From positions 62,001 to 126,000 of the forward strand of contig BCJC01000004.1 of the NCBI GenBank assembly GCA_001600175.1: a stretch of 64,000 bases of DNA, given 5' to 3'. Within the stretch, counting starts at the first letter, position 1; each line of letters starts with the position of its first letter. Below the pieces are notes generated by a model that did no database searches, was not told the DNA's origin, and saw nothing but the letters and a program-made list of their open reading frames with translations. The position numbers and the translations under genes were made by a program. Below, piece by piece: positions 5,948 through 42,126 of the stretch. Source of the stretch: Erythrobasidium yunnanense (lineage: Eukaryota > Basidiomycota > Cystobasidiomycetes > Erythrobasidiales > Erythrobasidiaceae).

Positions 5948-7197
5948 ATGCCTAGCCGTAGTTGTAAGTCATCGTCGGCAAGCCGCAAATCCTCCTCCTC
6001 AGCAAGTCGCAAAAGTAGCAAGCGGGCTTCAACGAGCACATCGAGCGACGACTCAAGTCTCGCCTCTCGTAAGTGTCTGGTTCACCCTGCCCTCCTTGCT
6101 GGCCCCGCTAAGGCCGATTGCCAGACATTTCACTCGACTCGACAGACTGGACTGACCTACTCCACAGAGCTCGCTCATCTAAAGGCAGAAAGCGAACAGG
6201 CTTACCTGGAGGTCTGGTCAGGCCTGATGGCGAGGTTGTGAACATCTCTGTGGACTCTGCCGGCAAAGTCGAAGCTTCAAGGACTTCTTCCCAACTTCTA
6301 CGGAACCGTCTGCTGTTAGACGATCTAGTACCTTTGGGTATACTGCCAGAACGACATGCCAAAGAAGATCTCCACTGGCGGTTCCGACTCCATCCATCCA
6401 AGCCTGATAAAGGCAGGGAACGGCTAACCAGGACGTTGGAGATCGAGGCGCAGGGAGGTGAGGTCAGCCTCGAGGAGACAACCAAGAAGAAGCTCAGAGG
6501 AAGGACAGCTCTTGCCAAGAACCTGGACCTGCGGCCCCGAATGAGCGAGGACAAGTACGATATGCATAGCAGCCTCATAGGTCGCAACTATGACAGCGGA
6601 CTATACGATGCAGTCGAGAGCGACTCAGAGCTCGAGAAGGCCATACACGATATTTCACGGACGGCCTTTGGTGCCAAAGCTGGTGTGGTCACGATGCCGT
6701 TGAGGAAGCCTAATGCCAAGATATCTAAAACAAAACCGAGACCAGCAAGAATGCAGTATTGTCAGCTACCCAAGTGCAGTACCTATCTCGCAAATGGCAA
6801 CCGATATCGTTCAACCAGGACCGAGGACTACGCATGGTACCGAATTACTCGTCAATCGGCTGAGATTAGGCGTTCGAACTACGTTGATCATCAAGTGCAC
6901 CGGCGAAAGTTGTCCACACATAAAACGGGTCCTCCAGAATCATCGTTTAGGCGTTTCGAGAGTCTTCAACTTTCAGGCTATCCAGACAGGGAGCTGATAT
7001 TGAAGAAAGAGCAACATCACATCGATAGCTATCCCTTTGTCAAAAAACGTTATGTGGCATCTCCATCCTATAGGACATGTGGCTTAGGCCTGCAACGTAG
7101 GCTTATCTTCGATACGAATTGCGCAAGTCTTCGACATAGATTCCAACGGACAACAGCTCTCAGTGATCTAGATCTAAGTGCAACCGTCTTTGACTGA
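5948..7197 (+). CDS. Orphan SR-tailed family protein, copy 1
   Basis: I do not recognise this family. Exons 5948-6068 and 6125-7197 give 397 residues. Residues 1-40 are almost pure Ser/Lys/Arg (MPSRSCKSSSASRK...), with no signal peptide or membrane segment. A phase-1 intron then splits a His codon, and the body begins HISLDSTDW. Shared blocks: a beta-like segment ISVDSAGKV near residue 78; the block RTALAKNLDLR; SSLIGRNYDSGLYDA; LEKAIHDISRTAFGAKAGVVTMPL; and a C-terminal FESLQLSG. Four paralogues in the window share the intron position and block order. The C-terminal third (after about residue 240) diverges most. Basic, mostly soluble; a nucleic-acid or nuclear role is possible but not shown. 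Confidence 0.8.
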
Positions 7198-7357
7198 TTC
7201 CCTTCTTCCCTCCCTACAAAGGCAAAGTCCGCTCGTAGAATCCGGCCTATCTGCAGCGAGCTTGGCTCACGACTATCACCCTCGAACGTCTCAACAGCGA
7301 ATTCAAGCCTACGCAGTCGCCTGGAAATCGTATCAATAATCATCAAGAGTCAGCATC

Positions 7358-8369
7358 ATGTCTACCCCAGGACGCTCAAGGCAAGCCTCAGCTCCAAACA
7401 GTCGCAGAGTCAGCAGAGCAGCCAGCGTGTCGACCATTAGTAGCAGCGATTCCGACAATCAATCCCGTAAGTATGACCCGGCAGTACACAGGATACCCTT
7501 CGTTAATCTTTGCTCTTCTCATAGATGTGACGGTCGATGACCAAGCCTACTATGTCTTGCGTGCTCACGCAAGAGCACTGACCGGTCGACGAGCACAGGC
7601 ACCATTGGTCCACAGTGAAACTGCTCAACTCGCAGTAAATGGCGAAGGGATAGTTTCCGGCAAGCGCACAACCTACATGCCTTATCCCAATCGTCTGTCC
7701 AACGATCAATTAGAGCGAATCACCGGTAGATCGTACGGTAAGTCCAACGTACTTCGTTTCCGGAACTACCCTTCACTGGAGGGAGAACCTCCCGAAACAT
7801 CTCGCATCCGGGAGCTTCAATTCTTCGACGACGAGAGAGGCGCCTTAGGCAAACAGAGCCAAAAACGGCTCAAGAGTGGCAAAAGAGCTCTCGCCAGCAA
7901 CCTTGGGCTGCGCCCATTCTCCGGCGACATCTATACTCTTCGAAGTACCCTGACTGGTCATCGTGCTGGCAGCGACATATACTCGGCTGGCAACTGCAGT
8001 GACAGGGTTCTCGAAGAGCATGTCAACGATCTGTCCAGCATGGTCTTCCGTGCAGAACCTGGAGCGCTCCAGATGCCTCTCAAACAAAGTCAAGATTTCA
8101 GCAATCATCCCCGCCCCCCGTATGCAGCTAATTCATGGGGTTATTACTGCTTCGAGCGCCCGCCAGGGAAGATGAATCATCAGCTCACTTCCGATAAGAA
8201 AGCCACCCCGCAAAGTGCTAGTCCAGCTACCGCGCGAACACCCTCGGCCTTTGTGCAGCAGAAAATTCGACGGGCTCATACGAAGCCTATAGCAAGCATC
8301 GAAAAGCCGCGTTCTGGACACAGTGTCCAGTACGAGACCTTATGGACCACACCAGAAGATGCTGAGTGA
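7358..8369 (+). CDS. Orphan SR-tailed family protein, copy 2
   Basis: Second tandem member, 160 bp downstream of copy 1. Exons 7358-7466 and 7525-8369 give 317 residues, the shortest copy. The Ser/Arg-rich first exon (MSTPGRSRQAS) ends in phase 1 after C of the shared His codon; the body starts HVTVDDQAYYV, the most diverged version of the block. Family blocks: LAVNGEGIV, GKRALASNLGLRP, STLTGHRAGSDIYSA, EEHVNDLSSMVFRAEPGALQMPL. The C terminus is truncated relative to the others and ends near QYETLWTTPEDAE, where the family has an ES/TL motif followed by an acidic-aromatic tail. Function unknown; same strand as copies 1 and 3. Confidence 0.78.
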
Positions 8370-8685
8370 AGATGATCTGCGACCTTAGCGCACTGGGCCG
8401 AAGCTACTTCGATACGAAGCTGTTTCAAACTCAGCTTCCATTTGCGCTTTCTGTTGGCAACTAGGATATGTCAGCTTGACGCGATGTTTCGTCCTTGCTA
8501 AGCTCTTGCCTGGATTGTGTTTAGAAGCACAAAAACCCTTGACACGGGTACTTCACAAAGGCACATCTCCTTTCCATGCATTCCCATTGACGAGGACTCC
8601 ACAAAGGTAGTAGCTGCCATCTACGCTCCAAGGTGCGGGCAGACTATGCCTCTTGGTTCTGCTTTGCCGAAAACGAGATTCTGCA
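8370..8685. other. Intergenic between orphan copies 2 and 3
   Basis: Gap of 316 bp with no coding evidence. It should contain the end of the copy 2 transcript and the copy 3 promoter. Confidence 0.5.
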
Positions 8686-9811
8686 ATGTCCGCCCAATCC
8701 AGCCGAAAGAATTCTGTCGCTAAAGCCAGCCGTGCGTCCAGCACTTCCACCATCGATAGCAGGGACTCCGACCGAGACTCTCGTAGGCTTATAGCTGCCG
8801 CTTATCGTCTGCAGCTTATCTTGACATGCAGATGTATCGTTGGACTCTGCGGCATGGGATTTTGCCTTGGCCGCCGTCAATGATCCTCAAGGTCCTAAGT
8901 CGCAGAGGAGGTTGAGCGAGTCCGAAAGGGTGCGGATATCAGTAAACAGTGCCGGTAAAGTCAGAACCAAACGGACAACTCATACCGCTCAACGCAATCA
9001 GCTGTCTCGTGACAATCTGAAGAAGCTTACAAACAAAGAGCCAGCCGATTCCGGTCTTCTTCGTCTGCGACACCACCCAAACCAGCGACATGTCGGTTCA
9101 GACCTTACTAAGGAGGAGTTGAACGTCTATCTGTATAGCAAAGCAACAGAACTCAAGCAGGTACACAAGAAAGCCAGTGAAGGCCGTGTCGCTCTTGCCA
9201 AGAATCTGGCCTTGAAAGAAGGCACGGGCGACAGGTACACGATTCGCAGCCGCCTGATGGGTCAGAACGCCGATAGTGGATTGTATGCTGCGGCTGACGA
9301 CGATCTGAAGTTGGAATCAGCTGTTCATGACATCTCCAAGACCGCCTTTGGTGCAGAAGCCGGCGTGATGCGCATGCCATTGGAGAACCCGGACCCGCGA
9401 TTCGTGCGCAAGGTATCGGACTCTCGAGAGTACGAGAGGGAGTCCGATCCTTCCGGCTATCGATGGTACACGGGTGATAGGTGCTACGATGTTTCCTCCA
9501 GTACGAAGACGAAACACCACCCTATCAAATGCATCAAGCGAGGCCAGCGCGAGTATGTCACCCAAGAGACCTATCGCGCGGACACAAAACTCTCAAAATT
9601 CACGTTAAATAAACCTGAAGGCCCTGGAGACTATTATACCCGCTACGAGAGCTTGAGACCGATTCCAGGAGGCTCGCAGCTCGAGCACGAAGATCTCCGT
9701 AGACAGCAAGTATACGAAGTGCTGACGAGCGAGCTCTGTTTTCTGAGATTGATGTACCAGAGATGGCTCTATCGTTGTGCCAATTCTTTTTCAAGGATTT
9801 TGCCAACATGA
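8686..9811 (+). CDS. Orphan SR-tailed family protein, copy 3
   Basis: Third tandem member. Exons 8686-8782 and 8832-9811 give 358 residues; the intron (49 nt) has the less usual donor GTAGGC and again splits the shared His codon, giving HVSLDSAAW. Blocks: ISVNSAGKV, GRVALAKNLALKEG, SRLMGQNADSGLYAA, ESAVHDISKTAFGAEAGVMRMPL, and a C-terminal TRYESLRPIPGG...HEDLRR that matches copies 4 and 5. Beyond this the protein runs on for about 35 residues not found in the other copies, so that its TGA stop (9809-9811) overlaps the ATG (9808-9810) of the next gene. The tail may be a recent extension, or an unseen splice may end the protein earlier. Confidence 0.78.
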
Positions 9812-10386
9812 TCGCTTCATCACAAGAGCTGTCTGAGACTCTCTCGAATCCTGCATCTAGCCAGAAAGCAACTTTTGTTTACTTCTTTGCGAACGTGCGT
9901 GGACTCGCAATATCCAGCAGTGTAAGGCATCATGACCTGACGAGACGTTACGGGAGACAGTGGTGTCCAGACTGTCAAGCAGCTGGCCCAGTCATCGACA
10001 GAGCATTCGCAGAAGATAGCAAGAGCCATCAAGATCTGCTCCGAGTCTTTGTCGGCGAGCGCTCCATGTAAGCAGGGACGCGAGCAAGGCTGGATGTCTT
10101 CATCGAGCTGATAGCGTAAGGTAGATGGAAGTCACAAGATAACCAGGTTCGTGGGAGTGACCGCCATTTGACCTTTAAGGTTGCTGAGCGAGATCTATCG
10201 GTCTCTTGACTAGTTCCGACAGGTGCCGTTCTCAATCAGCAGTATCCCTACGCTGATCAAGATGGAAGAGGTGAGACTGGAACAGTACTATTGAGCGCAA
10301 TCTGACAGGTTGTCCAGGGCAAAGAAACGGCCCGACTGGTCGAGAGCGAGATTCTGGATTCTGAACAACTTCAGCAATTCCTGTAG
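9808..10386 (+). CDS. Thioredoxin-fold protein of the TXNDC17/TRP14 (DUF953) family
   Basis: Small cytosolic thioredoxin-like disulfide reductase. Exons: 9808-9894, 9961-10067, 10125-10146 (22 nt), 10223-10270, 10309-10386; 113 residues against about 123 in the human protein. The redox motif WCPDC follows TFVYFFA; later come VFVGERS, W-K-S-Q-D-N-Q, the cis-proline loop ISSIPTLIK and a C-terminal ARLVESEIL, all in family order. The first intron can be read through in frame, and the retained form would keep GRQ before WCPDC, so that junction is less certain. It lies tail to tail with HTS1, stops only 89 bp apart, and its start overlaps the stop of orphan copy 3. Confidence 0.82.
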
Positions 10387-10475
10387 CAAGCACGACGCAA
10401 CGTCCAACTCAGACGAAAGCTTCGGCAGCGAAGTTCATGGATTTCGCTCATACAGCAGCGTGATCTGAACCGCCT

Positions 10476-12534
10476 TCAGCTTCTCTGCGCTAATCTAGAC
10501 TTGATAAAGCTGACGAGTTCTGTCCGGTCTATAAGCTGACCATCTTTATCTTGTCCTTCCGAACCTGCGAGATTCTCCTCCTTCCCGAGCTGTTCCTTCA
10601 CTCTGATCTTGCCTTCCTGGAGCTCGCTGCTGCCGATGATCACTGCGAAGGGTATTTGGTCTCTGTCGATGATGTCGAATTGTGGACGCGCTTTCGGTTT
10701 CGCCTTGTATAGGAACTCCGTCTGAACGCGTAATGTCAGCCATTCATTCTAAGAAGGCAGCAGGCCAGACCTACCCGCAAGCCAGCATCCCAGAGTTCTT
10801 TCGCTATCTGCATACGCTCTAGCAGTAGTCCATCTCCGACAGCCATCACGAATACGTCAACCTCCTTGCTCTTCACCTCTTTCTCCTTAGCTTCTGCCAG
10901 CCTCTTCTTCCACAATATGCTGAAGATCCGTTCCACGCCGAACGAGATACCTACACACGGTATTTGCTGGCCAGAGGGGGAAAACATGCCTACCAGATTA
11001 TCGTATCTCCCGCCCGCAGCGATAGAGCCGACTCCGACTTTGGCATCTTCGTCTTCTGGGTTGCTGCCTGTTGTTTGAGGTGCAGCACCTGTCGCGGAGG
11101 CATCGGCAGCTGGGTTGCTTTCCAGCGATGCTGGAAGTGCGCCCGGAGGAGCGGATTCAGCAGTCACGACTTCGTAGATGATGCCAGTATAATAGTCTAG
11201 GCCTCGGGCAAGGGAAAGATCAAAAGACATCTGTGGATAGACCACTTAGCCTGAACACCCTAGTGCGAGCTTTCTTCGGGACTAACCTTCTCTAAGATTC
11301 CGTACACCTTAAGGTAGGTGAAAAGGAGCTTCATGTCCTGCAGACCTTCCTTTGCCTGCTTGTTCTTCGTTAAGCTAGCATCGGCCAGCAATTTCTCCAG
11401 CAACTCCTCGCTTCCTGCAGACGTAAGCTTCAGCTTAAGGCAACTGCAGATCGTAGCAAAGCAATAAACACCTTTGAGCTTGACATACTCTCCTATCTTA
11501 TCGGCGACTGATGCGTCTAAGCCCTTCTCTTCCGTCATTTCCTTCTTGACTTCTTCCCAGGGCAGCTTGTCCAGCTTGTCTACCGCACTCGAGATGGTCC
11601 GTGTCTTGTCTGCAGGCACTCCGGACACTGCGAATATACCATCAAGCACTTTACGGTGGTTGATCTGGCATGAAAAGGTCAGATGAGCTGATTTCACGGC
11701 TGTAGAGTCAATACTGACCTTGATCGTGTACTCTCCAACATCCAGCTTATCCAGTAGCTGCACTGCCATCACCAGCACTTCTGCATCTGGTAACATCGGA
11801 TCGTATACTCCTGCTACATCGTAGTCGCATTGGTAGAACTCGCGCATCCGGCCTTTGGTCATAGCAGGATTGTCTCGGCGGTAGACCTTCGCGATGTGAT
11901 ATCTCTTGATGTTCTGATACGTAGAGCCATTCATAGCCAGGAAGCGAGCGAAAGGGACCTGTAAAAAGGCATTGTGTCAGAATAGGGGTATCGGCGAAGT
12001 CATACCAGATGCTTGAACCGCTCACAGTGAGGTCATATCTCAGTGAGCAGATCTCACCACCTTGATCTTTCAAGTCGTAGATGAGCTTGGAGTCTTCGCC
12101 GTATTTTCCAGCCAGAATTTCCTTCAATTCGAAGACGGGCGTATCTATCGTGACGGCGCCGTGCAGTTCAAAGTTGGATGTGATAGTCTTGAAGAGCTGT
12201 TGGCGAAGCAGCATTTCAGATGGATGGTGATCTTTCGTGCCCTGAGAATTTCCCGGTGAAACGCATCATTCAGCTTGTTTCGCATAAGCCTGCCTTAATA
12301 ATACAGTTAGCTTACCTTTGGCACCTTTATGACAATCTTATTCTTCTCCTTCTCTTCTTTCTGCTCCTTCTCTGCTTTCGCCAATTTGGCCTTGAGCTCC
12401 TTGACTTCAGCTTGGATACTCTCCAGATCTCCAGAACTGCTCGAGCTGGAACTGGCACCGCCTTGTTTGATGCTGCGAATCTGCCCTCCTAGCGCTGCAA
12501 CGCGCTCCTTCATGGCCTCTATGCTCGACGACAT
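10476..12534 (-). CDS. HTS1: Histidyl-tRNA synthetase, cytosolic
   Basis: Class II aminoacyl-tRNA synthetase that charges tRNA-His. Exons: 12534-12316, 12241-12026, 11958-11719, 11664-11472, 11414-11287, 11230-10775, 10721-10476 (565 residues). An N-terminal coiled, Lys/Glu-rich extension (first 73 residues) precedes GTKDHHP. Motif 2 is visible as [26 protein letters not shown], the histidine-specific motif as [10 protein letters not shown], and motif 3 as [15 protein letters not shown]...[11 protein letters not shown]. The C-terminal anticodon-binding domain ends [17 protein letters not shown]. An Ala/Pro/Asp-rich insertion of about 40 residues lies between LDYYTG and the IAAGGRYD block. No mitochondrial presequence is seen in this frame, though upstream alternative starts as in yeast were not excluded. 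Confidence 0.95.
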
Positions 12535-17426: not shown

Positions 17427-18007
17427 GATACTTGAAGCTTGAAGGCAGAAGGCAGAAACTCGACTTCTTCTCCGTCAAAAAAGCAGGATTTTAAGCGAAG
17501 TTGCCGGATGACAAATGTGGTCTGAACCGAGGCTGAACTAGGCGACAGGCGTTCTCAGTGCTCGCAGTATCTCGCAGCAGCCTTAGAACTATAGCATCAG
17601 TAATCTGGTCCAGCGGACCTCGAGCTGTGTTATCGACGCGATGGACGTGTCGCAGGCTGAGCAGGCTGTTCTTTCGGAGATAGTCAGAGATTTAGTATGC
17701 ATATGTCCAGCTGGTTCTAGCGGAGAGGTTGCTTCAATGCTATCGCGTTTAGATGGATTGTGACTTCACCGCGTCATCATTCATGGCCTTTTCGTCTTGA
17801 CGATTTGTCTTGGAAACCTAGCGCCGTACTGCGTGGCTGACTTACCTGGCCCAATAACGAGCAAATAAAGACGACCTTACGCCTGGATCAATCAAGGACA
17901 TTGGGCTCAGCGGAAACGGCCTGGGAGCGATCCGCCGTCAAATTATCATGGACAGGATAGCGTAGCATCTTGAGCTGGGTATGTATTCTACCTGATGATA
18001 CTTCGAT
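17427..18007. promoter_or_regulatory. Divergent promoter region, MFS transporter / disordered protein
   Basis: Both flanking genes start outward from this 581-bp region. Apart from a 40-codon open frame at 17641-17763 I see no gene here. An in-frame TGA at 17996 shows that the right-hand gene's ATG at 18008 is not the interior of a longer unspliced frame. Confidence 0.55.
17641..17763 (+). other. 40-codon open frame upstream of the disordered-protein gene
   Basis: An ATG-started frame (MDVSQAEQAVLSEIV...) ends in TGA at 17761. It lies about 245 bp upstream of the next gene on the same strand and could be an upstream open reading frame or a 5' exon (a GTATGC donor-like site follows DL at codon 18). 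There is no family match I recognise; it may be chance. Confidence 0.25.
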
Positions 18008-21000
18008 ATGGATGCGCTATCTGATTCGAAATGGTCGCGACGCTTCAGTACTAGTATGAGGATCCCTTTCAAGAGCAAGAAGTCGTACAAGGAGGACAGC
18101 AAGGCAGACTCGAATGGATTGACGGTCCCGTCATCAAACAATACCACTCCCAGATCATCCTCAGACTACTTGGGCGAGTTCGGACGCCCTTCTGTGAATG
18201 CAAATCCAGAACCCAAGAGGTCATTCTTCAAGCGAAGTCAGACAAGCACTGTCACAGGCGCCAATGACTTTTCCAAGAAGCAGTCAACAAGCCAATATGA
18301 GCGACCTGCGGCGACAATGTCAGCTAGCAGCAGTATAGCCAACGGACATCCCTTGCGACAGCAGACTTTACCAGCAGATCTCGAGGCTAGCAAGGGCAAG
18401 AGACCTCTGCTGAGCTATCCCAAGCGATCGAGCTCAATGGCGCCCTTCGCTGCCTCCCCCTATGCTTCCTCGTCATCATCGTCAGTCCCCTTGTTTGTGG
18501 GCAGCACATCTGCAACACCGCAATCGCAAGCACAAGAACCAACTTCTTCTGCATCTGACTCGTTCCAATTGCGCTCCTTCAGGGCAGTCTCGGGCGTTCG
18601 AGATGCAGAGCAACAACGTCAGCCGACCCTATCTTCACTTGCGCAGGAAGAGGCGCCCAACACCTATGCAGCATCTCCATTCAGCACCAGACCTAATTCA
18701 CCTTCGCCTTCAATAGGCGCGACATCGTATTTCGATAGCCATTTCATGGCACCCTCACCGATAGAAGGGCACGAGCGAACGCAGACAGGATCAGGCTCAA
18801 TTTCAGTCGCAAAGTTCCGAGAAGCATGCGCAGCCAGATCAACTTCGTCTCTGGGCAGCTTTGGTGCATCAGGCAATGCGCCAAATCTGCAAGGAGGGCT
18901 CAAGCTGGACCTACCTCCTCCTCTACCTACCGGCTTGTACTCCAAGAGCAGGTCATCGGTGGATATCTCAAGCGAGAGACAAGGCTTTCCGCATGAGCCC
19001 CTGCCGAAGCAAGTTCAGGACATTACGACGACATCGAATAGTGCTGGTAATCTGTCAGTCCTGGCATCAGATACGAGTCTTGAAGCATATAGTCCAGGAG
19101 TGGCGAGCACAGTGGGCGACTATATCGATCTATATACACCTCACGACTCGTATCCTCTTCACCATTCTCGAGGCTACTCGGCTTCAGAGGGCCATAGATC
19201 GCCGCGCCTGTCTTCTCCCGTACTAGAGACGCTCGCCGAACATCCAGACAATGCACTACCTCTACCTCCTATTCCAAGCGAGCCCTTCCGTCCATCCGGG
19301 CATTCTCGCAGGCAGTCTGTCCAGTCTGTTTCCTCGCTTTCTTCAGCCTTAGGCGGATGGATATCCGCTACTAGCGCGAACCTTGGTCTGCCCATGTCTT
19401 TGGACGATGTCCAGAAAGCAGTAGACAAAGGTACATCCGCTATCAAGTCCGCTACCCCGGCCTTAGATGTACCTTTTGCGAAGACAAAGCGGTCATCCAC
19501 ATCGAGCGAAGAGAGGGATGGAAGCCAGGAAGAAATACTGAACAAGACAGGTGCTAGCCTTTCGAAGGCCGAGTTGGATGCACTACTGGGAGGCAAGGTC
19601 TTACCACCTCCGCCGAGCGAAACAGGCGACGACGATCTTCACTTTGGCGCAAGGTCGTGTCCTGCACCTCCTTCGCCAGCTCAATCGGCCAGTCGACCTA
19701 ATATCATTCTATCTCGAGCTTCCTCAGTAGCCACTTCTCCCATGATGGCGCATGCGAAGAATCTATTCTCTTCAAGTTTCGCCAGACCCGCCAAACCTGC
19801 CAAAGACGACGAAGACGATGCCGACCAAGATTCCGAGACGGAGTCTTTGGCTCGAGATCAGCCTGTCAAGGTGAAGCCGCGTGCTGGGCTTTACTCGAGT
19901 TCCGAGTCCGACGAATCAGATGGTGATTCAGATGATAGCGATGTTCAAGCGCGGAAGAATGAGAGGGCAAGGGTCTTCCCGCCGCCAAGACCGAGAACTC
20001 CGCATGAGAGGGAACAAGCATACAAGACAGCTCAGACTCCGCCGAATCTCACCCCTGCAGCGAGCTTTAGTGACCTCCATTCATTAAATGCTGTAAGACT
20101 CCCCGACACTTGATCGCAGCGGTATTGATACTGAAATAACGCATACAGGCATACGCTCGACCGCCTTTACCGCTTCCAGCTCTGACGGCAGGAGCGCTGA
20201 AGGCGCTGGAACCAGATGATGACGAAGATGTTCCACTCTCTACTATAGCCCGCCAAAGAGGTGCAATGAGCGAGCTTGGCCTTCGCCCATCAGCAGCAAC
20301 GAAGAGTCAGCAGAATCTCCGACCACCGCTAGCGACAACACATCATTCTGGAGCAGCAAGCACTTTAGGCATCACTCCATCTGCTAAACCTAGGGTCTCT
20401 AGCAACCTGGCGGCGTCTATGTCTAGCGCGTTGAGCTCGTCAACTTCGTCAACTAGCTCGGCTATGCAGCAGAGATCGTTGTCCACATTGACGTCAACAG
20501 CTAGTCAGAACGCCATCAATCCGCTATCGCATCAACGATCTTCCTCGGCGCAGGGCATTCCTACCCTGTCAAGCAATCAGACGACATCTACGACACTGTC
20601 CGAATTGATCGCGGCAGAGATGGCCAGAGATGGTCTCACATCATCTGCCACGACTACCGGCCACAAACACTCGATCTCTGGGCCTAGTACATCCAGCGAC
20701 TCAAGCCTACCGCGCACTCCCAGCGAGCTATCTGCCATTCAACCCCCTGCATCTCCTGGCTACTCGTCGTCATTACTACAATCTGCTATTCCTACGACGT
20801 ATCGCAAACACAAGAGCTCGCAAAGCGAATTTGGATTCGGCAACTTCTCCGCAAAGAGCGTAGGCAGCCTCAACAGCTCTGCATCAAATATCAATTCTAC
20901 GGCTTCTCTACCGAGGCATGCGAAGACCAATTCCGTTCCTCTGGCGAAGCTTGATAATAGCAACAAAGAAACGGTCTTCGACAAGATGAGGAACCGCCAT

Positions 21001-21524
21001 CGCATGGAGGCACAACAGAACGGCCTTGGTCACGAGTCACACCCTCCTGTATCGCTATCGCCGCTAGGCCAAGCGTATCCTCCCGTGCTCGGTCCGCAAT
21101 CTATACAGGGCTTGCCATGTCCACCTGGCGTTGACCCTGTTCTATATGCATCTCGTAAGCGGAAAGTCGTACTATAACACCGTCAGGTAGCTAACATGTT
21201 GTCTCAGTTCCACCCGATCAAAAGCTCGCCCTACAGCACAGAGCCCAGCAGATGATGAGCATGATGCAAAGCTTTGCTCTCCAGGCTCAATCGCATACGA
21301 TGTCAGGGATGGCGCCTTCTCCCTCCATGACGTTTGCGCCTCCTATGCACATGATGTCTCCCGGCCTCCCTGCCTTTCCATCGATGCCCAGCTTCTATGG
21401 CGCAGCTCCTGCTCCTCTTCCCTTCAACCCTACAATGACCCACAGCTCCTCATTCTCTAGCCTTGGCTATCCGCAATCGTACCAGCAACAGCAAGACCAG
21501 CATTCGTTCCAGCAGCGCAAGTAG
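18008..21524 (+). CDS. Large Ser-rich disordered protein, function unknown
   Basis: Exons 18008-20092, 20149-21154, 21208-21524 give 1,135 residues. I recognise no catalytic domain. The N terminus is basic (KWSRRFSTSMRIPFKSKKSYKED). Most of the chain is Ser/Pro/Ala/Thr-rich with many basophilic-kinase-like sites (RxxS). There is an acidic stretch with DDEDDADQDSETE near residue 600 and again SSESDESDGDSDDSD, a short motif EDDDVPLS-like (EPDDDEDVPLSTIARQRG) near residue 720 and a conserved-looking FDKMRNRHRMEAQQNG segment. The C-terminal 110 residues are Met/Pro/Gln-rich (QQMMSMMQSF, ending QQDQHSFQQRK). It looks like a signalling or cell-polarity scaffold, but this is a guess. Introns are short and phase-consistent. 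Confidence 0.75.
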
Positions 21525-27788: not shown

Positions 27789-29690
<1,902 letters not shown>

Positions 29691-30115: not shown

Positions 30116-33100
30116 CTAGTACAAATTAGAGAGAGCTTGCTCGATCTGAGCGTTGATGAAAGCCTTGCGTTCGGTAAGGTCCATGCCATAAGCCTGTGTG
30201 CCATCAGATCAGCTCTAGATATTCATATTAAAGAAGAAGTCAGCTCACCCTCTCGAGCTCTTCTCGTACACCCTTTTTAGTTAGAGTCTGTAGGTCGGCT
30301 CTTGCCAAGACAGCCTTGATGTCGGCTTCAAGCTGTTCATCGCTGGGCATGCCATCTCCTTGCATCAACGGCATGCTCTGAGCGCCGAGAGACAGACTGC
30401 TCTGATGTCGCGAGGCGAACGGATTTTGCTGAGCACCTTGCAGCTCGTAGCCTTCGGTATACTGCTGACCTCCGCTGAAGTATTGCGAGCCGTAGCCTCC
30501 GCTCTGGTACGGCGAGGCACCAGAGATAGACCCTACTTGCGACCCTGCATAGCCCGGCGTATGGTAGCCAGTCACACCTGGAGGTGGCCCGCTGGAATAG
30601 GAATTGAGCGCTTGATGGTAAGACCGGGCGCCAAACTCGGACATAGGCGTTCTGGGTCTGCTGCCAGCTTGGTTGTTCAAGCCCATGACGCTTTCGTGCC
30701 CGTAGATGCTGCCCTCGCCTCGCATTCTTGCTGCATAGTCGGCTTCTTCCTTTTCAGCAAGTAATTGACCGATAGACGCATTGCTGCCTCGTTCCCATAG
30801 CTCGTTTTCGTAATCTACATGGCAACAGAACACATTAGTGTGATGCTTGTCTCGACACTCGGGAGCAAGTCTTACCATGCCACGATTTGAGGGGAATCTC
30901 TCTCTCATCATAGGCCCCTTCGTCATGGATGACAAGCTTCTTGCCTTGTTCTCCTAGAACAACACGAGTCTGACCCCAGCTGAAATCGTCTTGCTTCCAG
31001 AACGAGTATAGCGGCAGTGCGAAAGAGAAGACGGGAATAGCGAGAATGTAGATGATCATCCAGACGATCTAGCGCAGTATGAGCGTTAGCATTGTTTGCT
31101 CGTAGCTCGACCCATCTCCAGCTTACCATCTCGAACTTCCGGTGGAGTAGGAAAATGACAGCTTGAAGACCGTAGATCGCGCCAAGCATGATCAGAGCAG
31201 TCGTAGGTATTGCTTGACCTTCTCCCGCGACAAGATAGATGAGATAGACGATGTAAGCGACCGTTACAGGCTGGATGAGGGTAGAAATAAGATCGATAAG
31301 AACGATGGAGCGCATGCTGCAGCAGCAGAATCCGCAAAGTCGATCGACACGACCAATAAGTTCTGCAAGGTTGTGAATAGTAGAATTGATCCATCGTCGA
31401 CGCTGGGACAAGAGAACCTTCCACTCTTCGGGCGCGCTGCGAACGACAAATCAGCTTCCTCCCGCATGCAGCATCATGTGGTAGCACAACTTACATAGTC
31501 TTGGCGTGTGCATCCTTTGTGAAGGTCAATTTAGAAGTGGGGAAGTTCTTGAGCAGTAAAGTCGTCAAATATCGATCTTCTCCGAGATGCAACAGATTCT
31601 TCATGTGCAAGGTCTGGTGACATAGACTTAGCATTGTTCTTTCAGCAAGTATAGCAGACTTGCATCTACGCGGTTCTCGCCGAAAGCGATGACCACATCG
31701 TTAGCGATGAAGACGGGTTTGTTCTCCATGCTGCGAAGTCGGTAGAGAGAGAAACACCCAGGAAGACATGTAACACTGCCGAAAAGTGACTCGAATGCTT
31801 TGGCCAAATGATGGGAGATGAAGTACTGCAGAAGAAAATTCCACAGTCAGGAAACTTGCTGAATTATCGGAAAACTGCTCGCTCACCTCGTAGACCTGCA
31901 TCATAGATATCATCGACTTCTTGGCATTTGATAGCTCGGTTTCTCCGCAAGTAGCAATAACCTTTCGGTCGTGAGTCATTGCTGAGATGAAGCGGTTGAG
32001 CGAGAAAGGATCGACGACTGTATCGGCGTCGATAGCCAGCAAGAACTCGTAGAACGTAGGATTGACACCTGTATCGTACATTAAACGAGCTGATTATCAG
32101 ATTAAATTGACGAGACTTACCGATGACATTCTTGATCTGATGGTAGACTTCCAGCTCGCAAGGCGACATTGGCGAATCGAAGTGAACTCGGTTGAAGAAC
32201 CGCATAAGGACCATTTGAGAGTCTCGTTTACCACGGTTTCCAGGGCGAGAACGCTCTGATGGCTTGCCGACCTTGACGAAAACTATGTAGGGAATGACAT
32301 GTCCAGCATGTTCGTACAGACCTGAGTACACCTTGGCCTACAGAACAAGCATCGGATCAGCGAGAGGATATCTTGAAGTGGAACGGCACTTACCATGTTG
32401 TGCTGCTTGCTACCTTCGCCAAGCGATTGGAAGCTCAGTGGCTCCGGGTCAAGAGCTGGGTCTGCACCCAAGATGTCCAGTACGATTCTTGGAGTAGGTC
32501 TATCGTTACCAGATCCGATAATCATGCCGTCACAAATGACAAAGAGAAGTTTACGCTTGTCATCGTACTTCAAGCTAGCCAGACTCTCGAAGCATTCTCG
32601 GAGCGACTCTTCGCCTTCTGTATAGCATGGCACCTGCAGTACGACGAACCGATCGTGGTTCTCAGGTTGTCGAGGTTTGCCAAATTGAAGTGCGGCGATA
32701 AACTTGAAACCGATGATGGATATCATGCAGATTGAGAATGCCAAGAGGATGTAGCGGGAGAACTGACATTGGGCAGAGTTGCGGGTATCGACTCTGCCGA
32801 TGAAGAACAGATTCCTTAGACAGACCCTTTGTGCGGCCAGAACGTCGGCGGGTAGATTTAGGCTATCCAAGCGGTTGGTTATGTCTTGACCGGCAAACTG
32901 CTGGAAGATACTGACAACCTGGTCGTGCATAAACTGCCTGTCTGTATCTGCGGGAGCCGAGAAGCCAGCTGGAACAGCGATACCTCCACCATTATTGCTG
33001 ATATAGCCTGACATGTCGTACACATGACCGCGATAGATGACCGTATTGCGTCCATTGGTTGTTCTTGCGCGCTTCGTAACGTCGCTATGCGAGAAGCCTA

Positions 33101-36100
33101 CGAAGCCCTTTCTATAGTTATATCGGAGAAACACCATTTGTTCCCAATACCAGTCTGGGCGGGAATCATTCGTGACTATGAAGCAACTGTTAGCAGATCT
33201 GTTCACAAGATAGGTTGATCTACGACTCACAAGCTCGGAAGTCGTGATAGACGGCATTAGAGTCGCTAGAATTTGCTGTATCGAGCGTAACCCAGGGGCT
33301 GACAGAGCCGTCTTTGCCATTACAGAGGGCAGATACTTGGACAGGGAAAATATTCGACGCATCGACACCTCCGTATCGGAGGACGCTTCTTGTCGGAACC
33401 ACAGATGGATAATGGACATTTGCGAAGTTGCTGAGATCGAAGATTTCGCCTCTGATGGAGAGCATTTCAGATCCTGCATTGTTTGACGTCGAGTATTGTC
33501 CGAGTTCTTGAGGCGTGTAGACGTATTCTTTCGGGCAAATGAGGTTGCCCATGATAGCGACCACGAAGACTGCAGATCCGCAAAGCAGCATGATGAGCAT
33601 GAATATGGTGACCTTCTCGCGCCATGCCATCCTGACATCGGGTCTCTTCATTCTGCCGATGGTGCTGAGCAGAGGTGTCGGAATCCACCAAGTGAAAGCC
33701 CAAACGAGGAACTTCCATTGCTTGCGTGCTCTCGTTTCCTTGTACACTTCGACAGTCTCCTTAGGCGTTTCCTCCGTTGTAAGACCGGCCTTTTCGTCCG
33801 CAGTAGGCATCATGTCCTTGCTGAGCTCGTATTGCGAGGCAAAGTCGCCAGTTCTGCGCCGGCCACCGCCTTCTTCGAGATCCATCTTAGACTGCACATC
33901 ATCGTCCATAAAGAACGTCTTGCGATCATCATCGTCCCCAAAAGCATCCGGAGCAACTAGGGGCAGAGCTGCAGTAGACACGCTATTTGCATGCAGAGGA
34001 TGGTTATATAGCCGAGGGGCAGCTCCGAACGGAGATGCTTGATCGAGGGTGGGCGTATCGGGAGCAGCGAGAGGAATCGATGGTCTTGAGAAGGGGTTGT
34101 ATGGATCAGCTTCAGGTTCAGCGGACCGCGTGGCGAACTCTCGCATTCGCTTCTGCTCGTCCTGGTCAGCAGACCGTAGGCTGTCTTCGAGTTGCCTGAA
34201 TGTTGTGTGATTCAAGAAAACCTATGAAACGCATCAGTCTCAGCTTCGTCATGGTTATCCGAAGCGATCTATAGCTTACCCTGTCTTTGCCGATCCTGAA
34301 TTCCAATTCGGTCCATTCCATCTCCTCTTTGACGGCTATCATTTTGTCCTTCCACATCAAAGCAGCCGCTCTTTTCACAAGGTCGTTCTGCCATCTTTCA
34401 ATGACAGAATACCTATCCCAGAACTCCTTATACTCCATATCTACGACCCATAACGGTGCAGAAGCACACTTGTCGCGGATCATGTTCAGCTGTAGTGCCT
34501 TGATTTGCGACTTGAGATAGCGCGAATCGATGCCCGCGAAGCCGGATTGGCGAGCAGAGATAGATTCGTGAGAACCGCTGTTATAGGGAGTGAGACAGAG
34601 CAGGAAGAACATCCTGCATGATTCCGTGAGAGTCTCGAATAGATCGTTCAGAGAGGTATTGAGCGTTCCCATGACACAGCGCTGTGAGAGCATCTCCGCT
34701 CGTCTTGCAGCGACGGTGTTCTTCCTTGCAAGAGTAGCGCCGCGATTGAGACCAGTAGCGTTTTCATCGTCGTGGCCTGCTGCTTTCTTGGTCGAAGCTT
34801 TCCTGCGCATGGATGGTTTTCTCGCGGCTTTAGCGCCTGGTACAGCCAGACTGTTGGTTGCGGTATCTTCAGAGTTGGACGAAGCACCTAGAGGTCCACC
34901 CATAGTAGCCTTCTCGTTCGCCGCAGCATTCAGAACTTCATTCGCGAAGAGTTCCCTAACGAACGAGCTCGAAGATCCTCCGATAATAGTATTTCCGCCA
35001 TTATCATCCTTTGTGTTTTGTCGACGTCCACTTGTTCGCTTTGAAGCTGTACTCATTGATGGAATAGCTTTTCCACCTAGCAAGTCTACCAGGTCACTCG
35101 GGACTAGATTCAGGTTTCTCTCCGGAAAATCCTCAGTAGAGTACGTGATGAGTTCGCTGTCGTTCCAGTGCTCGACAGTGAACGTTCCAGCTCTTGACGA
35201 GCCAGAATCTGATTCTTTCCTCCATCCGAACTGTCGATTCTTGCCCCATCGCTTGCCCATTGCGTCTAGCATAGTCTTCTCCGTCTTTCCTTTGCGCACA
35301 CTCTGGTCGTCGATAATGTGTGCGAGACCTCCCGGCTGGTTTGTGAGTATGCGAACAGTCTCGCTGACGGATGCCGGTGGAGAAAGAGGTTTCTGGATCA
35401 TATTAGCAGACAATTGCTGCGATGTCTGCACCTCATAAGAGGCTTGAGGGAATAGAGAGCTTGTAACGAATGAGAAGATACGTTCGGAAGCGAAGTTGTT
35501 GCATAATGTAGAGAGGGTATTGCCTTCGTTTCGATGACCGGGAGAATTGACAAGTGCCGGGAAATCGACGAGCGCGATAAAGCCAGCAAAGTCATCTCTT
35601 TCCAGTTTCTGGTTGATGAACTCGCCTAGCCATTCCCATAGAAGTCTGTACAGAACTTTGGCCACGTATTCTTTGTTGTCGTTGGCTTTGTCGACATCGA
35701 GCACGATGGTACATTTGTCGCCATCGACGACCGCAGTCTTGGACGTGAATGCTTCTTCGAGTTTTGCAAGGTTGGCATCGGCGGTATTGGCGTTGTCGAG
35801 CAGGCCAAGCAGGGATGCGATGATGTGCAAAATGTCGGGAGTGGAAATGGAACAGCCTGTTGCAGAGTCCGACGTGGAGGAGGGAGTGAATTGTAGAGAT
35901 GATATATGGAGGACAGCAGCCAGAGTAGAGCAGAGGGACGCAACTATCGAATAGGAACGGATCAGCCTGGCAGCCCCATTGAACGGAAGGACGCATCACG
36001 TACCCGCTTTCTTTGGGAAGCCAAATGTCTTGAATGCTTGCTTCAGCAGCCCAAAACGCTCTCTGTTCTGCTGTTCAGACGATTCTACTCCACCAGTCCC

Positions 36101-36850
36101 AGGCTCGGGCAGTCTCAAGTGAGTCCTCTCGTCCGGGCTCGCGCCTGCGACTAGCCATCTGAGAGCGTTGAAGCTCCTCTCCTTGTTGTGTATCCCATTG
36201 ACTCCTTCTAACCCAAATCCGATCCTGCCTGTGTCCAGATCAAGGTTGTAAAGCAGAGTCTTGTATCCTGCTATCCTGCCTCTATCGCTGAACTGTAATT
36301 CTGCATATCTCCCAAATCTCGGATTGCTGAACTGCGTAGACGATGATCCCAAACAGCCAAACGCGTCTACGATGAACTCAGCCGCGCTGATCTGTTTGGC
36401 GACTCTGCTGCTCTTGCTGTTTGGTTCTGCAGGATTGCTCGACAGGCTCAACAGAGCTCTTGTAGCTAACCTGCGCTGCTCAGACTGTCCGGTTGCGCTA
36501 CTGGGCGCTGCAGACTGAAATAGAATGGCCTGGTCTTGGCTTGTCCTGCGCAAGTAGTAGTATGCCTTTGCAGCCAGCTCATAGACGTGTGGCTGAAGCT
36601 GTTTCTTGTCATCTTGGTCCTCATCAGTCTGTGCGAAATCGTAGTAATCCTCCAGGTAAGGCCTCAGGTCCACCGAAGCGTCGCCAACTTGCGGTGGCCT
36701 CAAGCTGAGTAGCAGAGCTGGTGAGTAGGCGACATAGCCATGACCATTCGAAGCCAGATGACCGCCAAGCTGCGATGTGAGCGCGTCGACGCTGGTGCCA
36801 GTGTATCGCGGCGCAGGCTGCTCGTCCTCAGCAATGGGCGAGGAAGCCAT
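30116..36850 (-). CDS. Chitin synthase with N-terminal myosin-like motor domain (class V/VII type)
   Basis: Plasma-membrane enzyme that polymerises UDP-N-acetylglucosamine into wall chitin. Twelve exons: 36850-36004, 35943-34280, 34221-33231, 33175-32394, 32337-32121, 32068-31887, 31825-31664, 31613-31495, 31436-31127, 31068-30876, 30814-30249, 30193-30116; 2,036 residues. Residues 1-840: myosin-like domain ([26 protein letters not shown]) without a usable P-loop. Then membrane helices, a cytochrome-b5-like section, and the GT2 core with [24 protein letters not shown] and [13 protein letters not shown]-terminal helices follow, then a DEK-C domain ([27 protein letters not shown]). The intron 31614-31663 probably uses a GC donor, which restores the conserved [10 protein letters not shown]. 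Confidence 0.93.
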
Positions 36851-37340
36851 ATTGAAGCGCCCAATAGAACGACGGAAAACGACGATGCGATGCGATGCGA
36901 GAGGAGAGATTGAACGACAGGAAACGAAGGGTATTGTACGAGTTCAAGAGAATTAGCGAAGGCAAATCAAAGGGTCAAGCGCAACAAGGGGACCCAAAGC
37001 TTGAGATGCGATGTACAAACAGCTCGAGCGGAGTAAGTAAGCAAGCAAAGTGTACAGAAGCTGCAGAGACGCGTAGATGAGCAGTCTGAGCCGTACCTGC
37101 CGTAAGGGAAGCCTGCATGAGTCTGTCCTCTCTGCATAAATGTTTAGCAGCAGGTGCGACTGCGCTAGAGTGGTTCCCAAATATGTCCACATCTAATTGT
37201 ACATTGTATTGTACAGTGGGTATAGAACGAAGGGTGAGTGAGAATGCGAAGCAGACTGAGCCTAAAGACCGAAGGAAGTCAGCCAGAGATCAACGATGTT
37301 GTAAGGCAAGCCCGTTGCACACACATTAATTCGACGAGTA
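36851..37340. promoter_or_regulatory. Chitin synthase upstream region
   Basis: This 490-bp gap lies between the chitin synthase start and the uS17m stop, both minus strand. It contains a small GATGC repeat (three copies at 36884-36898) 34 bases upstream of the start codon and no gene-like frame. Confidence 0.5.
36884..36898. repeat. GATGC repeat, three copies
   Basis: GATGC occurs three times in tandem in the presumed 5' leader of the chitin synthase gene. Too short to infer a function. Confidence 0.7.
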
Positions 37341-37922
37341 TCACGCCGTCGGTTGCGCCTTCGCTGCATCTGCTTCTTGCGACTGCTGCTCTAGCTGTTC
37401 TACCTCTGCGATTGTCGTGACTGTTTCGGACGCATCGACTCCCTGCGTGATGCCGCCAACGACTTTCGCGCGTTGTAGGATGTCTAGGAGTATATGCCGC
37501 TTGGATGCAGATATTGGCTGATGGAAGGGAAAGGATAGACCACAGAAAAGTCAGAGGAAAGATGACCGAAGGACAGGAAGGATAAGGTAGCGCACGCGAC
37601 AATTCTGAATGACTACTGTATCGCCAACGTTTGCTCGTTGTTCTGGATCATGCGTAGCAATCTGGAAGGTCAGATTGTCAGGCTCGAAATCGCATCTTCA
37701 GGTCAGAATAAAGAGTCTTCAAAGCACCTTTGTCCCTCGTTTCTGAATCTAACAAGCACAATTACGATACTTCAGCTCATTAAGAGTCACGGGCGAACTA
37801 GAAAGTTGGCCCACCTTTCCGACGACAGGATGGACTTTGTTTCTGCTGACTCTGACGGTGATGGTCTTGGGCATTCGATGCGCCGCTGTTACTAGACCTT
37901 TGAACTGCTGAGGACCAGGCAT
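37341..37922 (-). CDS. MRPS17: Mitochondrial small-subunit ribosomal protein uS17m
   Basis: rRNA-binding OB-fold protein of the mitochondrial 37S subunit. Exons 37922-37815, 37742-37728 (15 nt), 37661-37596, 37517-37341; 121 residues. The chain reads MPGPQQFKGLVTAAHRMPKTITVRV, then HPVVGK-KRGTK-IATHDPEQRANVGDTVVIQNCRPISASKRHILLDI, matching the family order K-x-K-T, (R)T-K-x-x-A-H-D, VGD-x-V-x-I, CRP-x-S-x-x-K. The 15-nt exon codes KRGTK, which joins the two halves of the conserved middle; flanking introns are 72 and 66 nt. It is Gln/Glu-rich at its end. Start codons of this gene and of the thioesterase lie 84 bp apart. Confidence 0.88.
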
Positions 37923-38006
37923 TATTGAAGTCTTGAAATTGATTGCGAAAGGCTTATTAGAGAAAGCCGACTTGGCTTGACCTTACGTCGATACTAACCA
38001 TCCAAG
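37923..38006. promoter_or_regulatory. 84-bp divergent promoter, uS17m / palmitoyl-protein thioesterase
   Basis: Only 84 bp separate two outward-facing ATGs, so both 5' leaders and both core promoters must fit here or overlap the neighbouring gene. The sequence is AT-rich relative to its surroundings and shows no TATA box on either strand. Confidence 0.7.
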
Positions 38007-39181
38007 ATGCGGCTATCCAGATCGCACTTCTTCCCAGTACTTACGCTTGCTGCCACTCAAGCTACCTATGCCGCTCCTCTGACTACTACATCCTCACCTT
38101 ACCCGGTCGCGATCTGGCATGGTCTCGGCGACAGCTATACGAATCCCGGTTTGACATCCCTAGGCGATGATATCAAAGCTGTTCTAGGGAACAACACCTA
38201 TGTCCACTATGTGCGAACGTCAGAAGACTCAGCCGCCGATCAGAAGAGCACTCTGTTCGGCAATATGAATACACTGCTGCATGATGTAGCTCAGGGCTTG
38301 AAGGATAACCCTGGCTTGCAAGGTGGATTCGATGCGATTGGCTTGAGCCAGGGAGGCGTCTTCTGGAGAGGCTACGTCGAGATATACGGCAGTTCCCCAG
38401 GCTACCCTCGTGTCCGAAACCTCGTCACTTTGGGATCGCCGTGGGCTGGAATATCATACTCTTATCCGAGGTGGTGTGCTGACATGATCTTGTGCAGACA
38501 CATGGGCATCTCATCCTCGCCACCCTGTCATCCTACAGACTTCTTCTGCAAGACAACGCAGTGGGCTTTGAAAGTAGGCGTATGGACACCGTACGCTCAG
38601 AATGGAGTAGTGCCAGCCCAATACTTCCGCAATCAAGCCAAGATAGAGGAATATCTGGCACACGATTCTTTCCTGAAGGATATCAACAACGAACGCGCAA
38701 ACGACACGCAGCCTGTCAGTGGAGCAGAATTTGGCTTATCTGAGGAGCAAGAGTATGTTGCGCGAAACGCGACATACAAGAAGAACATCGCTAGTCTAAA
38801 TAACTTTGTGCTTATGGCTTTCGAGTGGGCTTTTACAGCTTCTATGCGAGACGGAGATATTGATGATGCTCTTCTTGCAGTAACGACCAAACAGTGATAC
38901 CTAATACTTCTCCCCACTTCACGCTTCCCAGCTCCGACTTGCCAGATGCTCATCCGCTCACCTGGAAGTCGCTACCTCTATATTCCGAAGACTACATCGG
39001 ACTTCGCGCACTAGACGAGCAGAAAGGGCTTCATCGAGGAGTCTGCAAAGGACAACATATGCAGATCGACGATGAATGTTGGTCAAAGGTCATCAGTTGG
39101 CTAGGACCAGGCGGGAAAGGAAGAGGTCCTAGAAAAGAGGCAGATGGCAATCAGCCCATGCTGGTCCTCCAGCATTCTTGA
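38007..39181 (+). CDS. PPT1: Palmitoyl-protein thioesterase, lysosomal/vacuolar (PPT1 family)
   Basis: Alpha/beta hydrolase that removes palmitate from S-acylated proteins in the vacuole. Exons 38007-38440, 38498-38824, 38881-39181; 353 residues. An N-terminal signal peptide (FFPVLTLAATQATYAAP) precedes VAIWHGLGDSYTNPG. The nucleophile elbow is GLSQGG; the catalytic Asp is in MAFDNDQTVIP, formed across the second intron; the catalytic His is in CKGQHMQID. Both introns have the same unusual donor GTGGGC. Without the second intron the frame would run to a false stop at 38895. Candidate N-glycosylation sites: NNT and NAT. Confidence 0.92.
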
Positions 39182-39400
39182 TCGTATGTCTTACTAATCT
39201 GTCACATTTTGTAGCATTCAAAGGACGTTTTCGTGCCGTTCAATCCCTTCAGAGGCGAATGTAAGGGTATCACTGAGGACATCGGTTCGAAAGGTCCCCT
39301 CCTCTCGCACGCTGATACAAAGCCTCCCAAGCGTTCACCTCTACTATCATAACGCATCATCATTGGCGATCGTCACATCCTTACAGGCCTGGCTTACAGA

Positions 39401-40668
39401 ATGTCACAACGCTCTGACGCAGGTCCCGTCGGTCGGCAGTCATCAAGGCGGTCGAGCGACTCAGTCAGAAACACCGATATTGTGTCAAGACATTCTAGCC
39501 AAAGCCCGATCCGTCGCAAGTCTTCAGATTCTCTCACTCGTGAGTCAACTATACTACGATTACTCTTTCAAACCTTTCAGTGCCTGACGTAGCTCTTGTC
39601 CTTGTAGACGTATCAGTGGAGTCCAGTGAATGGCCTCGCGGGGACCCTTGTAAGGATCAGCGCCCTGGCACGGCTGCCTGGCTCAAGATACCGCCTGTGC
39701 AGAAAGTTTCAGTTACTGTAGACCACACCGGGACTCTACGAGCGGAGGAGAAGTTGACTGTCACATGTCAAAGAGATTTGACCCCTGCGAAGATCGCCGC
39801 CCTTACGCCCAAAGGCCAGGAGACTTCACCCTTCTTACGCCTTCGACTAAAGCGTTCGGATGAAATACCCAGTAATGAGAAGCGAGTCTCTGAGTATATG
39901 TTCGAGAAAGCAACCGGGAGAACCTATCTGGAAGAAACGAACACCACAATTTATACGAATCGTAAAGCGCTGTCGCGAAGACTCGGCTTACGAGAGACAG
40001 GAGATCGTTACCGAGTCTGGTCTCACACGCATGGCGCATGGGGCAACGAACTATATAAGGCAGCCGGTACTGATGCTCAGCTGGAGCAATGGATTCACGA
40101 TGTTTCGAACCAGGTGTTCTCGGCTGCCAAAGGTGTCATGCGGATGCCTTGCGATGGTCTTGAAGTGGACGAGCTGGACTTTCGAGGAACAACAGGTGGC
40201 TCCTCAGTCACCGACAGAAGTGATAGTGGTCGCCTGAAGAAACGAGTCTTATTTCAGCACTATTCCAAGAAGGTGTTTGGGAAGAAAACTCAGCAGACCG
40301 CGGCTGAGGCCGATGGAAAGACACTTGACCAGTTTCCTAACTATCGCGGCAATGGCTATCCAAGACTGTCCACAGCAAAGAATGAGGACCAGACACAGGT
40401 CATGAAGGTTGACAAAAGAATCACGAAATATACGCTCGACCCACTTCTAAGAGGGTACCATGCAAAAAGGGCAGCAGACAAAGCTTGCGTTTACGGTCAA
40501 GATATCCGTCGCTCCAATCCTGTCGCGGTAACAAGCGCCAGCAAGAATGGCGCTGTAGCTGCAAAAGATGGCTTCATCAAGAGACGCGAGACAATCGCAA
40601 TTCATGGCCGCGAAAAAGAGCTCACCTATAAGGATCTCCGCTACTATCCTTGGAACCAAGAAGGATGA
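39401..40668 (+). CDS. Orphan SR-tailed family protein, copy 4
   Basis: Exons 39401-39539 and 39608-40668 give 399 residues, the longest copy. The Ser/Arg/Asp-rich first exon (46 residues) ends in phase 1 within the shared His codon, and the body begins HVSVESSEW. Blocks: VTVDHTGTLRAEE, IAALTPKGQETSPFLRLRL, NRKALSRRLGLRETGDRYRVWSH, GNELYKAAGTDAQLEQWIHDVSNQVFSAAKGVMRMP, and the C-terminal KRRETIAIHGREKELTYKDLRYYPW. This copy and copy 5 share VDHTG, FGxxLYRS/ACVYGQDIRRS and the YPW ending, and form a subgroup apart from copies 1-3. No signal peptide, membrane helix or known fold is visible. Confidence 0.8.
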
Positions 40669-41039
40669 CCGATATGGCCATAGGCAGATGAAGTATGTGC
40701 CGACTCATCTTCGAACTCCTGCAGTGGACGGAACACAGCTGCGGTTCTGCCTTGGGTGGTCCTGAATGTTGCCAATGGCTGTACCGGTACTTCATTACGA
40801 CAACACCCCTGCTGACCTTACCATGCCGATCAATTTGCGTGAGGTCAGACTTCAAATCCCCTTGATTCCGCTTGACCTTGACGTAAGGGTCCACTCCCTT
40901 CCACTTGGTCACAAAGGCATACTCGCACTCCTGCCTCCCCAGTAATTTCCACACTCTCTCTTTTTACTACCGCACACTCTAGCCAGTCATAAGGAACAGC
41001 AGGAAAAGCTACTACCTGTGCCACTCAACTCCGTACACG
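40669..41039. other. Intergenic between orphan copies 4 and 5
   Basis: Gap of 371 bp, no gene seen; presumably the copy 5 promoter. Confidence 0.5.
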
Positions 41040-42126
41040 ATGTCACGACCACAAAGCCGAAGCTCGCTCACTGGGAAAGCTTCGAAGTCGTCCAGTCGAA
41101 GCGGTTCAGATGCGTCCAGCCGTAAGTGCCTTGTTTGGCCCTTTTCTCGTCAACATGCGACTCATACCATTCCATCTAGACGTATCCCTCAACTCCACCG
41201 ATTGGAACGACACAATGAGAGCTATAGGCGCTAATAAGCCCATCTCGGCTGCTCGGAGCTCAACGCCCGACTTGCACAGAATGCTAGTGACAGTAGATCA
41301 CACCGGGGAGCTACGAGCGGAAAAGTCGTCGCTCGTCCGTACTATGCAAGTACCGCAATCACGGATCAAGACTCTTACCCCCCAAGGAAGAGAATCGGCA
41401 GCATTCCTACGCCTCAGGCAGGGACATTCGAGAAGGCGCCACAGCGACGAAGGAGAGGGGTTCAGAGAATGTGTGATCGAAAAGGCCACCGGGAAGAGCA
41501 TCGTTGGCTCAAAACATCGCAAAATCTTCAAAGACCGTCAAGCATTAGCAGCAGACCGGGGCTTACAAAAGGAGGGCGACCGATATGCAGTCTGGGCTCG
41601 CTCATCTGAACAGTTCGGGTGGCCGAATTTATACGAGACGGCTGATACCGACGAGATACTGGAATGGTGCGTCCACGATATCTCGGAGCATCCCTTCCGT
41701 GCCGAAAGGGGTATCATGCGCATGCCTCTCAAGACAGCAAAAAGCGCTAAGAGGGTAATCCCAGAAGAGCCCTACCTCACAACGTCTGCACCGCCGAGCG
41801 ACTCCTACGTAGGTCATACAGAGCTGATACACTCCAAGGAAGGCAAGAAGCAGCATGTCCGCAGAGCCGATATACATACTTCGAAGTATCCACTAGTCCT
41901 TGCTAGAAGCGGAAGCGGAAGTGGTATAGCAGAAAGACTAGGATCAAATGCATGCGAATTCGGTCAGGCACTTTATCGTTCAGCAAGTTTCGGCAACTAT
42001 AGCAGCCGAGCAAGGCAGTCCGCCGTAGAGACTGATATAATCACCAGACACGAGTCGCTTGCCATACATGGCACCAAAGACGAGCTCACCCATATAGACA
42101 TGCGAACATATCCTTGGAAGAAGTAG
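41040..42126 (+). CDS. Orphan SR-tailed family protein, copy 5
   Basis: Exons 41040-41121 and 41180-42126 give 342 residues. The first exon is short (27 residues, MSRPQSRSSLTGKASK...) and ends in the shared His codon; the body begins HVSLNSTDW, nearly identical to copy 1 HISLDSTDW although the rest is closest to copy 4. Blocks: VTVDHTGELRAEK, IKTLTPQGRESAAFLRLRQ, DRQALAADRGLQKEGDRYAVWAR, PNLYETADTDEILEWCVHDISEHPFRAERGIMRMPL, and ITRHESLAIHGTKDELTHIDMRTYPWKK. It is followed, tail to tail, by the histidine acid phosphatase 163 bp away. Function unknown. Confidence 0.8.

Follow-up and report, generated by a model that had tools for sequence, protein, structure and literature searches.

Tandem gene families whose products carry no known domain, have diverged strongly and lie near a chromosome end are a general kind in fungi, and families without a known domain account for a large part of the unexplained fungal genes. 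The genes described here resemble the lineage-restricted tandem orphan families of fungi in their tandem copies, the lack of a known domain, the strong divergence and the position near a chromosome end, but differ from them in that two copies have well-conserved relatives elsewhere. The stretch of DNA that was analysed (the window, 64,000 nucleotides) corresponds to positions 62001-126000 of contig C4 in a genome of 20,915,242 bases and ten contigs. A sequence-only reading of this DNA had placed five members of one protein family in the window, and all five spliced to open frames with the ends assigned to them in that reading. The features, in window numbering, are the following:

Copy A, exon 1: 5948..6068, plus strand, Ser/Lys/Arg-rich tail of 40 codons plus 1 nt
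Copy A, intron: 6069..6124, plus strand, 56 nt, GT-AG, phase 1, His codon split
Copy A, exon 2 (body): 6125..7197, plus strand
Copy B, exon 1: 7358..7466, plus strand
Copy B, intron: 7467..7524, plus strand, 58 nt, phase 1, His codon split
Copy B, exon 2 (body): 7525..8369, plus strand, the shortest copy
Copy C, exon 1: 8686..8782, plus strand
Copy C, intron: 8783..8831, plus strand, 49 nt, phase 1, His codon split
Copy C, exon 2 (body): 8832..9811, plus strand, end out of register with its relatives
Copy D, exon 1: 39401..39539, plus strand
Copy D, intron: 39540..39607, plus strand, 68 nt, phase 1, His codon split
Copy D, exon 2 (body): 39608..40668, plus strand, insertion after the MP motif
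Copy E, exon 1: 41040..41121, plus strand
Copy E, intron: 41122..41179, plus strand, 58 nt, phase 1, His codon split
Copy E, exon 2 (body): 41180..42126, plus strand

The spliced proteins, without the stop, were 397, 317, 358, 399 and 342 residues long for copies A to E. Each begins with a short Ser/Arg-rich first exon (40, 36, 32, 46 and 27 whole codons, in agreement with the proposed range of 27-46 residues), followed by a GT-AG intron that in all five window copies interrupts a His codon (C|AY) in phase 1. The sequence blocks proposed for the body, H[VI][ST][LV]xxxx[WY], VxxxG and AL[AS]xx[LR]xL, could be read in all five copies, as could the longer block [HN]D[IVL]Sx3FxAxxG[VIA][MLV]xMP. 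BLASTP, with E values calculated for a database of 8,000,000 residues, related all ten pairs of window copies, with the best E value per pair ranging from 9e-42 (D-E) to 7e-5 (B-E). The proposal of one family with tandem copies and a fixed intron position and block order was thus borne out by homology and by the gene models.

The number of members had to be corrected. A profile built from the five copies, which recovers their bodies and first exons by construction, was run over the window in all six frames and found no further copy (next best E 0.21). Whole-genome searches with four of the six bodies as queries (C, D, E and A, not B or F) each returned the same six genes at E values up to 10, so that by these searches the family has six genes in this genome and not five. 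The sixth, copy F (L003), lies at 980.9-981.8 kb of contig C1, which is 4.95 Mb long. Its first exon has 23 codons and is Ser-rich with a single Arg, its intron of 50 nt has the place and phase seen in the other copies, and its body extends over 318 residues from the split His. Copy F keeps H-V-S-V-x4-W and A-L-A-x-x-L-x-L and has YKVS...Y in place of [HN]D[IVL]S...F. In 6/6 copies of the genome, a His codon ahead of the body is therefore split by a phase-1 intron, and the first-exon tail was counted as Arg-bearing in 5/6; the intron comparison covers these six copies alone, the three outside relatives (P0001, P0002 and P0003) being known as proteins only. A tRNA-like gene (L003 881-962) precedes copy F by about 0.4 kb; ARAGORN, used with the bacterial code, gave it no amino acid and a four-base anticodon.

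Protein searches for these relatives gave two, three and zero matches with copy C, with a profile and with copy D, respectively. The search with C detected the unnamed predicted proteins P0001 and P0002 (sources lgn and jgi; 62% and 64% identity, with matches covering 82% and 73% of the query), which cluster with C in the tree. The profile search, which scored only the 7998 candidates sharing most words, added P0003, an unnamed predicted protein from source lgn that is 61% identical to F and groups with it at 100/100 support. In contrast to copies C and F, the three relatives lack the first exon in the predicted proteins, P0001 and P0002 being predicted as single reading frames. The search with D alone gave no relative at E values up to 10; since it misses even the three known relatives, that protein search misses distant members. 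A word-based literature search for the family found no paper, words being a poor handle on an unnamed family.

In the unrooted tree, for which the program warned of long branches meeting, F was joined to P0003 and D to E with 100/100 support each, and C to P0001 and P0002 with 84/92. Branch lengths were 1.78 for A, 1.94 for B, 1.09 for D and 1.12 for E, compared with 0.27 for C and 0.44 for F. Copies A and B have diverged further, as have D and E to a lesser extent, and C and F keep close relatives elsewhere. Codon comparison of exon 2, with copy C cut before its out-of-register end, gave a dS of 1.92 for D-E and 2.42-6.15 for six other pairs, and was not computable for eight of the 15 pairs. 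Because synonymous sites are saturated, dN/dS was not usable for these pairs. The saturation, together with the observation that C and F are closer to relatives from other samples than to any paralogue here, leads us to conclude from the sequences that the duplications are old. On the simplest account, the lines leading to C and F were already separate when the sampled organisms diverged, and the tandem copies are likewise old. Of the earlier suggestion of a tandem expansion with fast divergence, the tandem family therefore stands, but a fresh burst does not.

The 3' end of copy C needs separate treatment. Approximately 37 residues (window 9698-9811) are out of register with P0001 and P0002, which stop ten residues past the HEDL motif, whereas copy C continues in another frame. 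The residues that resemble the end of these relatives lie in a different frame at the copy C locus, and the 3' end of the copy extends into the reading frame of the gene that follows, which encodes a TXD17-like thioredoxin. The out-of-register end is either a strain indel or an assembly error.

Measured from the left end of C4 (2.29 Mb), copies A-C are at about 68-72 kb and copies D-E at 101-104 kb; both ends of this contig carry a telomere-like repeat. Among the neighbours with Pfam matches, an Ap4A phosphorylase/ATP adenylyltransferase precedes A; C is followed by the thioredoxin and a histidyl-tRNA synthetase; D is preceded by chitin synthase and myosin-head reading frames and by a palmitoyl-protein thioesterase; and E is followed by a histidine phosphatase and a DEAD-box helicase. 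These neighbours include ordinary conserved genes and suggest no pathway. The chitin synthase and myosin-head reading frames adjoin each other at window 32283-36943 on the minus strand, an arrangement like that in myosin-motor chitin synthases. Two further reading frames of the window, at 17999-20113 (704 aa) and 20140-21177 (345 aa) on the plus strand, had no Pfam match at E 0.001.

In agreement with the sequence-only reading, in which no known domain had been recognised, searches of Pfam, NCBIfam, PADLOC, PHROGs and the PDB sequences gave nothing above chance. No Pfam-A row came near its curated cut-off for the five window copies (best E 0.64) or for the eight members of alignment A2 (best E 0.078), the PDB gave no sequence match at E values up to 10, and the PHROGs matches were at chance level (best E 0.031, for one member of nine). 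AlphaFold models of C and F, which rest on 8 and 9 sequences in alignments that share eight, were of moderate confidence, with a best pLDDT of 80 and 76, respectively; the five models of C spread from 80 to 57. The last helix of the C model (residues 301-321) lies in the out-of-register stretch and is therefore to be ignored. The order of helices and strands agreed between the two models, whose alignments overlap as stated, and the predicted body opens with a strand and a helix, which are followed by two strand-strand-helix-strand stretches, one more helix and another five or six long strands. The family is compact (six genes), with a fixed gene structure, a body modelled at moderate confidence and two conserved copies.

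Foldseek found no match to the C model in the PDB at an E value below 0.001. For the F model, 9x2b_A and 6in9_A scored below this value and were rejected on their TM-scores (0.15/0.04 and 0.12/0.13), and the single match below 0.001 in the viral library had a TM-score of 0.13. In the second look, PDB folds of the MHC class I type, a sheet with helices, made up the majority of the rows for each of the two models; these, the thioesterase hot-dog and the porin rows were treated as common arrangements. Since the fold searches used whole models, a domain match could have been missed. An internal duplication in the C model (residues 28-86 and 88-150, each strand-strand-helix-strand) was considered and had no sequence support; four profile-profile comparisons of these stretches and the C-terminal part gave P values of 0.48, 0.67, 0.086 and 0.21. 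With rather low probability, the models may represent a fold unseen in solved structures, to which a Ser/Arg tail that switches location or binding would be joined; at least two old paralogous lines, C and F, would have been kept, and the tandem copies freed to diverge.

All six spliced proteins are basic, with a pI of 9.6-10.1. The highest 19-residue Kyte-Doolittle mean was 0.25-0.70 in all six, and maxima as low as these, as far as hydropathy can tell, give no indication of a membrane span or of a classical signal peptide. By the same measure the signal peptide of a classically secreted effector was not found, the first exons being Ser-rich with no hydrophobic run. The six genes form an old fungal family of basic proteins that bear no sign of secretion or membrane anchoring and combine a Ser-rich tail exon with a conserved body; the tail is disordered-looking and the body, of the alpha/beta type, has about 280-360 residues. 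The six first exons contain 14 R-x-x-S sites, where 5000 shuffles that kept the composition gave 8.9 on average (p 0.021), and the first exon of copy F has none. This excess gives a weak hint that the tail may be phosphorylated.

The reading that we favour, at a probability of roughly 0.3, is that the products are basic intracellular proteins that bind a polyanion, nucleic acid being the most likely one, and that use the Ser/Arg tail as a phosphorylation switch. The family arose from duplications of old date, some of which were tandem events near the left end of C4. The proteins would act inside the cell as binding proteins, with nucleic acid or another polyanion as the most likely partner in view of their pI; phosphorylation of the Ser/Arg tail would switch binding or location, and the copies may have split or shifted their partners. 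This proposed mechanism is weakly supported. A high pI does not by itself demonstrate that the proteins bind nucleic acid, and neither the domain searches nor the fold searches gave a match pointing to any function. The six genes look like a real but ordinary uncharacterised gene family, which by itself leaves the general picture unchanged. Its compactness and the conservation of C and F make its function approachable by gene removal and localisation.

Other explanations have to be set beside that of an intracellular binder. That the body is an uncharacterised enzyme seems unlikely, although alignment A3 (nine sequences) has 19 invariant columns, several of them polar: in copy F numbering, R82, R84, D138, Y140, Y154, D160, E164, S171, R251 and E274 are invariant polar residues. 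Conserved Arg, Asp, Tyr and Glu would then meet in a pocket, for which the two Arg of the LRLR strand, the Asp and Tyr of GDxY, the Asp and Glu of DxxLE and a late Arg and Glu are candidates; against this, no Pfam, NCBIfam or PDB sequence match rose above chance. Quite unlikely, in our estimate, is a family acting at a fungus-host or fungus-fungus interface, effector-like or in self/non-self recognition, and diverging under changing selection. The tandem clusters 68-104 kb from a contig end with telomere-like repeats, the long branches leading to A, B, D and E, and the variable C-terminal third would fit such a family, but the first exons have no hydrophobic run fit for a classical signal peptide, the duplications are old and copy F is found 0.98 Mb into a contig of 4.95 Mb. 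None of the explanations, the intracellular binder included, is well supported.

Both the dispersed and tandem arrangement and the high divergence could also be seen in domesticated remains of a mobile or viral element. We consider this origin very improbable, since only six copies were found and all share the intron, the PHROGs matches and the Pfam transposase row (E 0.078, one member of eight) are at chance, and viral contigs gave no relative of copy C at a sensitivity for close relatives. In the latter search the short patterns of copy C occurred in 10 stretches of viral contigs and 62 stretches of bacterial and archaeal contigs, none of which encoded a relative (tblastn); such a search reaches close relatives only, and one of its six patterns lies in the out-of-register end. 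That the five frames are chance open reading frames and no genes deserves next to no credence. Their codon scores (0.05-0.13) do fall short of the 0.15-0.22 reached by seven reading frames of the window that have Pfam support and were scored on themselves, but among the six possible frames the annotated one scores highest in 5/5 window copies, six copies share protein-level homology and a fixed intron, and relatives exist in other samples. Conservation of the predicted proteins already speaks against chance reading frames.

The repeat at the contig ends is a tandem of AACCCTCTGT(A), which is (T)TTACAGAGGG on the G-rich strand, with units of 10 and 11 nt; an example is C4:1-45 (L027). This telomere-like unit is non-canonical and stands in place of TTAGGG. 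A 22-base pattern of two units had 63 exact matches in the genome, compared with none for the reversed control; 62 were at the ends of C1 (both), C2, C3, C4, C5, C7 and C9, and one was inside C3. A 14-base pattern had 74 matches, compared with one for the reversed control; it brought in the start of C3 and the right end of C4, which makes 10/20 contig ends with the unit. The part of the TelFinder paper considered here (PMC10100673) gives TTAGGG for most Pezizomycotina and a few named exceptions, none of them (T)TTACAGAGGG. A literature search on spellings of the (T)TTACAGAGGG unit gave no title on fungal telomeres among the matches listed. Patches of the unit were also detected inside contigs:

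C3:564798-564819, minus strand, interior patch matched by both patterns
C1:1845986, plus strand, interior patch matched by the 14-base pattern
C1:2218272, minus strand, interior patch matched by the 14-base pattern
C5:1621216, plus strand, interior patch matched by the 14-base pattern

Rfam gave no match when the four interior patches were searched together and only a chance-level microRNA row for one patch. The four patches hold two to three units each, some of them imperfect; one could be the template of a telomerase RNA, and the others could be interstitial repeats.
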